In this document: piece by piece, positions 22,378-57,628 of the stretch | How the letters are laid out: the number at the start of each line of letters is the position of its first letter | Position numbering within the stretch: the stretch's first letter is position 1 | Assembly: GCF_005435165.1 (NCBI RefSeq) | Contig: NZ_SGUC01000005.1 | Coordinates: forward strand, 1 to 64,000 | Direction: 5' to 3' | Source of the DNA: Halorubrum sp. GN11_10-6_MGM | GTDB taxonomy: Archaea; Halobacteriota; Halobacteria; Halobacteriales; Haloferacaceae | Length of the DNA stretch: 64,000 bases | Notes under the pieces: generated by a model | Told to the model about the DNA's origin: nothing | The model's input: only the letters and a program-made list of their open reading frames with translations | Databases searched by the model: none | Translations under genes and position numbers: made by a program

Positions 22378-22484
22378 GAACGTTCGTGGATTCATGTGGC
22401 CCCCTAAAGTGCCTGCCGTTTTCGGCGTGAGCGTCGCGCTCGCAGGGCTTGCCGGTTCTCGCCGGCCGGCCCGCGAAACGCTTC

Positions 22485-22558
22485 GCGGACGCGTCCCGCG
22501 ATGCCTCGCCGACTCGTCCCGTGACGCCCCGCGGACGCGTCCCGCGATGCCTCGCCGA
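22485..22558. repeat. Short direct repeat, two 28-bp copies
   Basis: A 28-bp unit beginning gcggacgcgtcccgcgatgc occurs at 22485-22512 and again at 22531-22558. It lies upstream of icd and just past the end of the glycosyltransferase gene. No protein or promoter role is evident; slippage or local duplication would explain it. Confidence 0.7.
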
Positions 22559-52618: not shown

Positions 52619-53008
52619 TCAGGCGCCGGCCCCGTCGTCGTCGGGGGCCTCGTCCGCGTCGTCGACGGGGATGGTCCGGGAGACGTCTCGCTCCCGCTTC
52701 GGGAGCGAGATTTCGAGGACGCCGCGGTCGATCTCGGCGTCCGCGCCCGCGCCGTCGGCGTCGCTCGGGAGGGGGAGCTCCGCGTCGAGGAACAGCGGGC
52801 GGTCCTCGCGAACGTACTCGAACCCGTCGGGAACGGCCTTGTCGCGGCGCCCCTCGATCTCGATGCGCCCGTCCTCGACGAGGACCTCGGTGGTCTCCGC
52901 GGTCGCGCCCGGGAGGTCGACGACGAGGACGTACCCGTCGTCCGACTCGAGTAAGTCCGCAAACACCGCGTCCGGGAGGTCCCGGAGCGCGTCACGTAGC
53001 GCTGACAT
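52619..53008 (-). CDS. Hsp20/alpha-crystallin small heat shock protein
   Basis: A 129-residue protein with an alpha-crystallin core: YVLVVDLPGATAETTEVLVEDGRIEIEGRRD, then DAEIDRGVLEISLPKRE, the GVL-x-LPK strand. A Pro/Asp-rich acidic tail follows, and no IxI motif is visible, which may affect oligomer assembly. Its TATA-like ggtttttc is centred about 30 nt upstream. Co-transcribed with the ABC1 kinase. Confidence 0.88.
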   Translation of the reverse strand: MSALRDALRDLPDAVFADLLESDDGYVLVVDLPGATAETTEVLVEDGRIEIEGRRDKAVPDGFEYVREDRPLFLDAELPLPSDADGAGADAEIDRGVLEISLPKRERDVSRTIPVDDADEAPDDDGAGA

Positions 53009-53845: not shown

Positions 53846-53960
53846 ACGTCCCCGGGACGCGCAACGACCTAAAAAGGCGGCTACGCGGCGGGAAGAGACC
53901 TGCCGCGCGCTCGACGCGACCGATCGTCGAGGGACGTCCTAGAAGCCGCCGAGAGGCGTC

Positions 53961-54731
53961 CTAGAGACCGTCGAGGAACGCCGAGAGCGCGTCGTTGAAC
54001 GCGGCCGGGCGTTCGAGCATCGCGAGGTGGGCGGCGTCGGGGAGCTCGGCGCACTCGCCTCCCGCGAGCTCATCCGCGAGGTACTCGTGGTAGGCGGGCG
54101 GGGTGAGTCCGTCGTGCGCGCCGACGAGCGCGAGCGCGGGGACGCCGATCTCGTCGAGTCGGTCCCGAACGTCGAAATCGTGGCAGGTCAGGAAGTCGCG
54201 CTCGGTGACCGCTCGCCCGCACGCGCGCATGGACGCCGCCGAGAGCTCGACGTACTCGGCGGGCGCGTCGTGGAACAGTCGGTCCGGCTCGTGGAGCAGC
54301 GAGACCGCTCGGTCGAAGTCGGTCGCGAGCGCGTCGCGGAGCGGCTCGGCCACCGCGAGCTTCGCGCCCGTGCCCGCGAGGACGAGGCCGTCGAGCGCGA
54401 GGTCGCGCTCCAGGGCGATCCACAGCGCGACCGCGCCGCCGAGCGAGTTTCCGCAGAGGACGGTCGCCCCCGTCGCCTCGGCGACGGCGACGACGTCGTC
54501 GGCGTACGCGTCGAGCGTCTCGGGCCCCGCGGGCGTCGAGACGTCGTCGCTGTCCCCGTGTCCGGAGAGGTCGACGGCGACGCCCGGGAACCGGTCGGCG
54601 AGCCGCGCCTGCGACTTCCAGACATCCTTCGTACCGCCGCTGCCGTGGACGAAACAGACCGTCGGCCCGTCGCCGCCGCGGTCGAAGCGGCGGAACGCCG
54701 TCGCGCGACCGTCGTGGGTGATCCGTTCCAT
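53961..54731 (-). CDS. Alpha/beta-fold hydrolase
   Basis: A 256-residue serine hydrolase. The oxyanion loop is VCFVHGSGGTKDVW, the nucleophile elbow is LCGNSLGGAVAL (Ser ~97), the acid is in LVGAHDGLTPP and the His in PDAAHLAMLERP. The cap domain is small. TATA-like cgtttatgc (minus strand, 54756-54764) is centred 29 nt before the ATG. Substrate unknown; esterase or C-C hydrolase are both possible. Divergent from the Cdc48 operon. Confidence 0.9.
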   Translation of the reverse strand: MERITHDGRATAFRRFDRGGDGPTVCFVHGSGGTKDVWKSQARLADRFPGVAVDLSGHGDSDDVSTPAGPETLDAYADDVVAVAEATGATVLCGNSLGGAVALWIALERDLALDGLVLAGTGAKLAVAEPLRDALATDFDRAVSLLHEPDRLFHDAPAEYVELSAASMRACGRAVTERDFLTCHDFDVRDRLDEIGVPALALVGAHDGLTPPAYHEYLADELAGGECAELPDAAHLAMLERPAAFNDALSAFLDGL

Positions 54732-54849
54732 GTCGGGCCGGTTCGACGCCGAGCGGCATAAACGCCGGCGGGGCCGGACCGCGGACGGCGATTCGCGACC
54801 CGCGGCGCGCCGTTGGGATCCACGGTACGTCGTCGGAACCCACGGCACG

Positions 54850-54974
54850 TCGTGGAGACGGCGAACGGGACACGTGGTCGAGACGGCGAACGGGACACGT
54901 GGTCGAGACGGCGAACGGGACACGTGGTCGAGACGGCGAACGGGACGCGTCGTCGAGAGGGGGAGCGGGACGCG
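54850..54974. repeat. 25-bp tandem repeat, five copies
   Basis: Five contiguous 25-bp units with the core gagacggcgaacgggac. Copies 2 and 3 are identical, copy 4 differs by one base, and copies 1 and 5 are diverged. Degenerate remnants continue upstream (cgtcggaacccacgg). It separates the hydrolase start from the Hsp20-like/Cdc48 promoter. There are no spacers, so it is not a CRISPR array. Because 25 is not a multiple of 3 it is unlikely to be coding. Confidence 0.9.
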
Positions 54975-55078
54975 TGGTCGACCGCCGGACGGCGACCGAT
55001 CGGGTGGTGATCTGCCCCGAACCGCTACACTACCGATAGGAGAAAATCACACTCACGTCATGCGATTCTACGCGACAG

Positions 55079-55087
55079 ATTTAAATA
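55079..55087 (+). promoter_or_regulatory. TATA box of the Hsp20-like/cdc48 operon
   Basis: The perfect-looking atttaaata is centred 30 nt before ATG 55113, within a strongly AT-rich stretch (55040-55110) just after the tandem repeat. Confidence 0.75.
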
Positions 55088-55112
55088 GCTATGCGACTAA
55101 CTCGTGGTTAGG

Positions 55113-55364
55113 ATGAATCACAGACAGACCCGATCGACCGGCGACGGCGCGCTGCTGCGTCGGTACGAGTACGACGACGGGTGGATCGTCGCCGCCGATC
55201 TCGGCGTCGACGACGCGGACGTCAGCGTCGACACCGTCGGCGGGACGGCGATCGTCGTCGTGGAGGGACCGGACGGACCGGTCGAATCGGAGTTCGAGCT
55301 GCCCGGAACGGCCGCCGACGCGGTCGTGAACAACGGCGTGCTCACCGTGGAGGGCGAGCGATGA
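55113..55364 (+). CDS. Hsp20-like small protein (DUF7127-like)
   Basis: An 83-residue protein with an alpha-crystallin-like beta pattern: [33 protein letters not shown], then [26 protein letters not shown]; the NNGVLTV segment resembles the conserved sHsp G-V-L strand. ATG 55113 is fixed by the TATA box spacing; a GTG nine bases upstream is less likely. Its stop overlaps the cdc48 ATG (ATGA), so the two are translationally coupled. A co-chaperone or adaptor for Cdc48 is a reasonable inference. Confidence 0.85.
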
Positions 55365-57628
55365 AGCTCACAGTCAAGCCGCTGAAACAGAAGGACGCCG
55401 GGCGCCGCCTCGCGGCGATCGACCGCGTCGCGGCCGAGGAGCTCGGGCTCTCCGGCGGAGATATCGTTCGCGTTGAGGGCTCCGACGGGGCCGCGATCGC
55501 CCGCGTCTGGCCCGGCTACCCCGAGGACGACGGGACCGGCGTGATCCGTATCGACGGCCGGCTCCGGCAGGAGGCCGACGTGGGGATCGACGACCGCGTG
55601 ACCGTCGAGGACGTCGACGTCTCGCGGGCGGACGCGGTGACGATCGCCTTCCCGAGCCAGCTGCGGGTGCGGGGCCAGATCGCCCCGTTCATCCGCGACA
55701 AGCTCTCCGGCCAGCCCGTCACGGAGGGCCAGACGATCCGGACCTCGCTCGGCTTCGGGCTGATGGGCGGCCAGTCGCAGGCCGTCCCGATGAAGATCGC
55801 CGAGACGAGCCCCGGCGGCACGGTCGTCATCACCGACGAGACCGACATCTCGATCTCCGAGATCTCCGCCGAGGAGCTCGCCGACCGCGGCGACACCGCG
55901 GGCGGGACCGGCGAGGGCCCGGACGTCACCTACGAGGACATCGGCGGACTCGACGACGAGCTCGAACAGGTCCGCGAGATGATCGAGCTGCCGATGCGGC
56001 ACCCGGAGCTGTTCAAGCGCCTCGGCATCGACCCGCCGAAAGGCGTCCTACTCCACGGGCCGCCGGGCACGGGGAAGACGCTGATCGCGAAGGCGGTCGC
56101 CAACGAGATCGACGCGAACTTCCACACGATCTCCGGCCCGGAGATCATGTCGAAGTACTACGGCGAGAGCGAAGAGCAGCTCCGCGAGGTGTTCGAGGAG
56201 GCGTCCGAGGAGTCGCCCGCGATCATCTTCATGGACGAGCTGGACTCCATCGCGCCCAAGCGCGAGGAGGCCGGCGGCGACGTGGAGCGCCGCGTCGTGG
56301 CCCAGCTGCTCTCGCTGATGGACGGGCTCGAAGAGCGCGGCGAGGTCGTCGTCATCGGGGCGACGAACCGCGTCGACGCCATCGACCAGGCGCTCCGCCG
56401 GGGCGGCCGCTTCGACCGCGAGATCGAGGTCGGCGTTCCCGACCGCGACGGTCGCAAGGAGATCCTTCAGGTCCACACGCGGAACATGCCGCTGGCCGAG
56501 GGGATCGACTTGGACGAGTACGCCGAGAACACCCACGGCTTCGTCGGCGCCGACCTCGAATCGCTCGCGAAGGAGTCGGCGATGCACGCGCTGCGGCGCA
56601 TCCGCCCCGAGATCGACCTCGAAAGCGACGAGATCGACGCCGACGTGCTGAACAACATTCAGGTGACCGAGTCGGACTTCAAGGAGGCGATCAAGGGGAT
56701 CGAACCCTCCGCGCTCCGGGAGGTGTTCGTGGAGGTGCCCGACGTCACCTGGGACGACGTGGGCGGCCTCGACGACACCAAAGAGCGGCTCCGCGAGACG
56801 ATCCAGTGGCCGCTGGAGTACCCCGAGGTGTTCGAGGAGCTCGACATGCAGGCCGCGAAGGGCGTCCTGATGTACGGGCCGCCGGGCACGGGGAAGACCC
56901 TGCTCGCGAAGGCCGTCGCCAACGAGAGCGAGTCGAACTTCATCTCGATCAAGGGGCCCGAGCTGCTGAACAAGTACGTGGGCGAGTCCGAGAAGGGCGT
57001 CCGCGAGGTGTTCAGCAAGGCCCGCGAGAACGCGCCGACGATCGTGTTCTTCGACGAGATCGACTCGATCGCGACCGAGCGCGGCAAGAACTCCGGCGAC
57101 TCCGGCGTCGGCGAGCGCGTCGTCTCCCAGCTGCTGACGGAGCTCGACGGGCTCGAATCACTGGAGGACGTCGTCGTCATCGCGACGACGAACCGGCCGG
57201 ACCTCATCGACTCCGCGCTGTTGCGCCCCGGTCGCCTGGACCGGCACGTCCACGTGCCCGTCCCCGACGAGGAGGCGCGGCGCCGGATCCTCGAGGTCCA
57301 CACGCGGAACAAGCCGCTGGCCGACGACGTCGACCTCGACGCGCTGGCCCGGAAGACCGAGGGGTACGTGGGCGCTGACATCGAGGCGGTCGCCCGCGAG
57401 GCGTCGATGAACGCCTCCCGGGAGTTCATCGGCAGCGTCACCCCGGAGGAGGTCGGCGAGTCCGTCGGCAACGTCCGCGTGACGATGGCCCACTTCGAGG
57501 ACGCGCTGCGCGAGGTGAACCCGAGCGTCACTCCCGAGACGCGGGAGCGCTACGAGGAGATAGAACGGCAGTTCAGGCGGTCCGAGGTGGAGCGCGACGA
57601 GGCCGAGCCGGGCGCCGCGTTCCAGTAG
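55361..57628 (+). CDS. cdc48: Cdc48/VAT-type AAA+ ATPase
   Basis: A hexameric unfoldase feeding the proteasome. The 755-residue chain has an N-domain (double-psi barrel, residues 1-185), D1 with Walker A GPPGTGKT at 233-240 and Walker [16 protein letters not shown], and D2 with Walker A near 506-513 and [15 protein letters not shown]. Arginine-finger regions are present in both rings. The C-terminal tail ([12 protein letters not shown]) lacks the HbYX ending that would dock on the 20S proteasome. Coupled to an Hsp20-like gene. Confidence 0.96.

Follow-up and report, generated by a model that had tools for sequence, protein, structure and literature searches.

The 25-bp tandem array that lies between an alpha/beta hydrolase gene and the DUF7127-cdc48 operon is best explained as a minisatellite that is specific to its lineage and occupies a tolerant spacer, with little or no effect on the promoters; we give this reading a probability of about 0.8, the class being assigned from one genome per species. 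The array is ordinary and of low interest in itself, and it is the adjoining promoter module that merits follow-up. The predicted regulon to which that module points is a valuable by-product of the analysis, and the predicted operator beside the array is expected to matter more than the array.

The array and its setting

Tandem Repeats Finder (TRF), run on the whole 64-kb stretch of DNA that was analysed (the window), confirms the array reported in the initial annotation and places it at the top of 72 rows, with 92% matches (Table 1). Five units are in register at 54850-54974, as had been described, with 2, 0, 0, 1 and 5 differences from copy 2, but the full extent is slightly longer, at 5.4 copies. 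These counts bear out the annotated pattern of identical copies 2 and 3, a copy 4 one base different and diverged edges. Allowing up to 3 mismatches, the unit has 4 matches in the window as against none in 100 shuffles, and in order-3 Markov simulations (5 x 464 kb) the best array scored 79, with none reaching 100. One unit of 25 bp corresponds to 2.38 helical turns (10.5 bp per turn), which sets neighbours about 137 degrees apart; the strict alternation of helix faces that had been annotated does not hold. The window also has a further array whose period is not divisible by three at 22483-22558 (23 bp x 3.3, score 110), and a second, weaker tandem repeat lies at the 3' end of the hydrolase gene (53928-53980, 22 bp x 2.4, score 64).

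The hydrolase gene runs leftward and the DUF7127-cdc48 operon rightward, and the array lies between them. Its placement between a hydrolase promoter and the cdc48 TATA box likewise agrees with the annotation, the TATA-like box of the hydrolase being putative, from sequence and position. The first gene of the operon had been called Hsp20-like; Pfam assigns it to DUF7127, and the label Hsp20/alpha crystallin is given to the DUF7127 gene in one public record, that of a 987-kb plasmid of Natrinema thermotolerans (L196, CP031304.1 352541-358348) in which hydrolase, DUF7127 and cdc48 follow in identical order. The spacer of this plasmid has CTTACCTTGGGTTAG before the start, one mismatch from CTAAC-N5-GTTAG. 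A separate gene of the window, at 52619-53008 on the minus strand, matches Pfam HSP20. Gene content, together with best plasmid hits that are Halobacteria, points to a haloarchaeal genome. A scan for sigma-70 promoters and terminators, which does not model archaeal promoters, gave no matches.

Table 1. Coordinates of the array, the neighbouring genes and promoter elements, and the candidate regulator gene
Feature	Position	Strand	Details
Alpha/beta hydrolase gene	53961..54731	-	start codon 54731; Pfam Abhydrolase_6, E 1e-20
TATA-like box of hydrolase (putative)	54757..54764	-	sequence and position
25-bp tandem array, 5.4 copies	54846..54981	.	consensus CACGTGGTCGAGACGGCGAACGGGA; period 25; TRF score 216
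Conserved block A, GAACCGCTACACTACCG	55019..55035	+	47/50 loci, 92-95 nt before DUF7127 start
Conserved block B, CACGTCATGCGATT	55054..55067	+	47/50 loci, 58-59 nt before start
TATA box of DUF7127-cdc48 operon	55080..55087	+	48/50 loci, 32-33 nt before start
CTAAC-N5-GTTAG palindrome	55097..55111	.	50/50 congeneric loci, 0-1 nt before start
DUF7127 gene	55113..55364	+	Pfam DUF7127, E 4e-21
cdc48 gene	55361..57628	+	Pfam AAA (2 stretches), CDC48_N, CDC48_2
Phr/HSR1-like regulator gene	L117:1111-1770	-	220 aa; Phr family E 2e-24

Origin of the array

A set of 52 congeneric genomes was searched and the region upstream of DUF7127 was obtained from 50 (49 relatives and the genome of the window itself); G009, which gave no match, and G071, which matched near a contig end, were left out. 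In 44 of the 49 relatives a hydrolase orthologue sits immediately upstream; in L020 and L111-L114, where it was not found in that position, 400 nt were used in its place. The spacer of the 44 hydrolase-bearing relatives measures 148-273 bp (median 200), against 381 bp in the array genome. The array unit is unique: at up to 3 mismatches it occurs in none of the 51 other congeneric genomes, and its 4 matches in its own genome are every one inside the array. The recent expansion that had been proposed is supported by this absence and by inner copies that are identical or nearly so. A 20-base part of the unit had no match in viral contigs or in genome contigs, collections that may omit the genome of the window; a viral origin was rejected on the viral part of this result.

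Other tandem arrays, with periods of at least 20, are present upstream of DUF7127 in 6 of the 49 relatives (TRF score at least 40), namely in L005 (23 bp, alternatively 46), L023 (30), L027 (20), L097 (24), L108 (24) and L113 (23; here the hydrolase is not upstream); at the same threshold the remaining relatives have shorter periods or no arrays there. The units of these sister-species duplications are unlike one another. The unit of the close relative L097 has GAACGGGA in common with that of the window, and to judge by this shared segment the two arrays may have grown from a common seed. When six close spacers are aligned, the last window copy falls opposite single-copy sequence, beside a shared stretch around CGACCGCCGGACGGCG, which together with the diverged edges is in keeping with the recent expansion and with the greater age that had been ascribed to the edge copies. 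Other units in six relatives, and a last copy that stands opposite single-copy sequence, are what one would expect if parts of a tolerant spacer were duplicated time and again; the region between hydrolase and cdc48 accommodates such events more than once.

Arrays of this kind are common in the genome, and the window instance is a large one. A sample of 464 kb, made up of the window and 400 kb from three contigs of the same genome, contains 31 arrays scoring at least 100. Periods not divisible by three, the sole sign used for non-coding arrays, are seen in 10 of the 31, and 9 of these 10 fall in 23-35 bp. By TRF score the window array leads the 10 and ranks fourth among the 31. It has the head-to-tail units, of about 10-60 bp, that characterise minisatellites (25 bp x 5.4), and the confinement of its unit to one place in the genome sets it apart from a dispersed family. 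We envisage that about 25 bp of unconstrained sequence in the hydrolase/DUF7127-cdc48 spacer underwent duplication and then amplification, probably via replication slippage or unequal recombination; the inner copies would be young and the edge copies older, and the geometry within the promoter module would be left unchanged.

Alternatively, the array could be a lineage-specific regulatory device, in which the units bind a protein, or copy number serves to tune the two divergent promoters or to insulate them. Several features count against neutrality in this way: the array lies between two promoters, it has the top TRF score in the window and leads the 10 arrays described above, and its unit includes the palindrome CACGTG. 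The unit of a protein-binding array would be conserved or present at other targets, but this one is at no other site in its own genome and is confined to a single species, being absent from the other 51 congeneric genomes; different units occupy the same region in other species, and the geometry of the promoter module is kept without the array. The repeat-specific binding protein suggested by the initial annotation is disfavoured on these grounds. We regard a regulatory device as unlikely, and hold the same opinion of a private, lineage-specific function of any kind.

The genome is a 3.3-Mb draft in 200 contigs, and the copy number might in part be an artefact of assembly; this is very improbable, given the diverged edge copies and a total length, 136 bp, that common sequencing reads are long enough to span. 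There is still less reason to see in the array part of a transcribed or coding element (a small RNA or small protein): open frames span it, for example 54813-55010, but there are several on both strands, as high G+C predicts, the period is not a multiple of three, an open frame across the array has no Pfam match, the array has no Rfam match, and it folds no more stably than shuffled sequence (plus-strand z -0.04, minus-strand z +2.58). A near-neutral minisatellite, which affects the two promoters little or not at all, is most likely what is present here, and promoter-region arrays are not necessarily regulatory.

The conserved promoter module

The initial annotation had correctly named the TATA box of the operon, but blocks A and B and the palindrome were missing from it. 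Searched as a GAACCGCWACACTACCG-like pattern and as CACGTC..GCG.TT, respectively, blocks A and B are fixed in position to the same degree as the TATA box, and across the 50 loci the distance of the module from the start codon is constant whatever the length of the spacer (the palindrome count includes two extrapolated starts, L112 and L113). The array stops 37 nt short of block A and therefore cannot alter spacing within the module. A role in tuning spacing, as had been proposed, also finds no support in the 44 relatives, whose spacers vary over more than 100 bp with no disturbance of the promoter geometry. In L023 the 30-bp tandem duplication covers the opening bases of block A, which shows that the conserved module itself can be affected.

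CdrS is reported to bind upstream of Haloferax cdc48d at -110 (PMC8406309). Block A is a possible CdrS site. Among the matches to it at up to 4 mismatches in the DNA scanned from this genome, the one followed, with 3 mismatches (L177), falls in a tRNA-Gly gene.

A predicted heat-shock regulon and its known counterparts

The palindrome of the module, CTAAC-N5-GTTAG, is the published motif of HSR1, a heat-shock regulator of Archaeoglobus (PMC9133787). HSR1 and Phr are placed together in arCOG01684, with HSP20 and CDC48 as targets (PMC5852551), and their regulons are described as having an sHSP gene and an AAA+ ATPase gene in common (PMC10653856). The window site is the sole exact occurrence in its genome. 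Within the order, exact sites are found in 104 of 146 genomes (147 sites), while a reversed control pattern gives 164 sites in 86 genomes; with the control this frequent, presence alone means little and it is position that constitutes the evidence. Loci were fetched from three other haloarchaeal families, one per genome, and in 28 of these 30 the site is beside the DUF7127-cdc48 pair, no more than 15 nt from the extrapolated start. An operator motif at the cdc48 operon, the mark of the HSR1/Phr regulons, is thus present there as well as in all 50 congeneric loci. A further 20 sites were picked by hand among the matches listed: 10 precede a TFB gene (in 8 genomes from a single family), 3 precede DUF7127-cdc48, including one in G088, which is one of the two genomes without such a site among the 30, and 7 have none of the five proteins tested nearby.

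In the genome of the window, the motif is found at 10 places with at most one mismatch and the control pattern at 11, so that here too position decides. Three of the 10 are at promoter positions, those of cdc48, of a regulator gene and of a TFB gene; no such promoter setting was seen for the remaining 7. A search of this genome with the NCBI Phr family gave one good homologue, the regulator of Table 1, and two weak ones; HTH_20 candidates in L067 and L068, entertained as the HSR1 homologue, were dropped because the L117 protein is better. Regulators of the L117 type are present in 52 of 52 congeneric genomes and in 140 of 146 in the order. The motif copy CTAACCACACGTTA, with one mismatch, runs directly into the regulator ATG. 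The best motif site at the regulator start has one mismatch in all 33 congeneric loci (fetched loci only, own included; L159, lacking upstream DNA, was excluded), as compared to an average of 5.2 and a minimum of 3.0 for 29 permuted palindromes. Outside the genus this motif site is much weaker, with a mean of 4.4 mismatches in 21 fetched loci against at least 4.9 for the controls.

The third place, CTAACTACACGTTAA (one mismatch), is upstream of a gene for a 350-aa TFB (L199:1501-2627) and follows TTTATATA by 9 nt, a spacing equal to that at cdc48. The exact motif is upstream of TFB genes in another family (L206-L209, L211, L212, L214-L216 and L219). From the arrangement of these sites we consider it fairly likely that haloarchaea possess a heat-shock switch in which a Phr/HSR1-like regulator would repress its own gene, the DUF7127-cdc48 operon and the TFB gene. 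Repression is predicted to act through CTAAC-N5-GTTAG sites close to where transcription should begin; heating would relieve it, and the resulting rise in TFB would drive further heat-shock genes. No description of this regulon or of the array was recognised in the literature searched, mainly openly accessible papers. An HSR1-type site at the cdc48, TFB and regulator genes allows a specific and cheap test in model haloarchaea.

Both parts of this locus can be set beside known systems. Like the prokaryotic minisatellites and VNTR loci treated in a satellite survey (PMC6749651), the array consists of short tandem units, recently expanded at one locus; unlike the satellites which that survey describes as predominant in Halobacteria, with multiple-of-three periods within genes, it has a period of 25 and is intergenic. 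The HSR1 operator of Archaeoglobus fulgidus, as reported (PMC9133787), has the identical motif and is likewise beside a cdc48 operon, whereas the candidate regulator gene for this putative site is on another contig, outside the operon. Phr of Pyrococcus furiosus (2p4w) is the best solved relative of the L117 regulator (E 1.1e-20, residues 6-156); the latter is under the NCBI Phr cut-off (87.5 of 320 bits), and its C-terminal half matches Pfam HTH_Cmi2_C.

Haloarchaeal heat shock is attributed in one review to general transcription factors, and in that account an HSR1-type mechanism had not been identified there (PMC9133787). The review relates that heat shock raises TFB2 and TFBb, which drive hsp5, and that in the TFB-directed system of Lu et al. 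(2008) the core promoter was sufficient, its account of that work naming no dedicated regulator. A TFB gene, which may or may not be the orthologue of TFB2 or TfbB, is likewise among the targets predicted here. If the predicted switch is true, the dedicated-repressor and TFB-directed models would be joined in one cascade.
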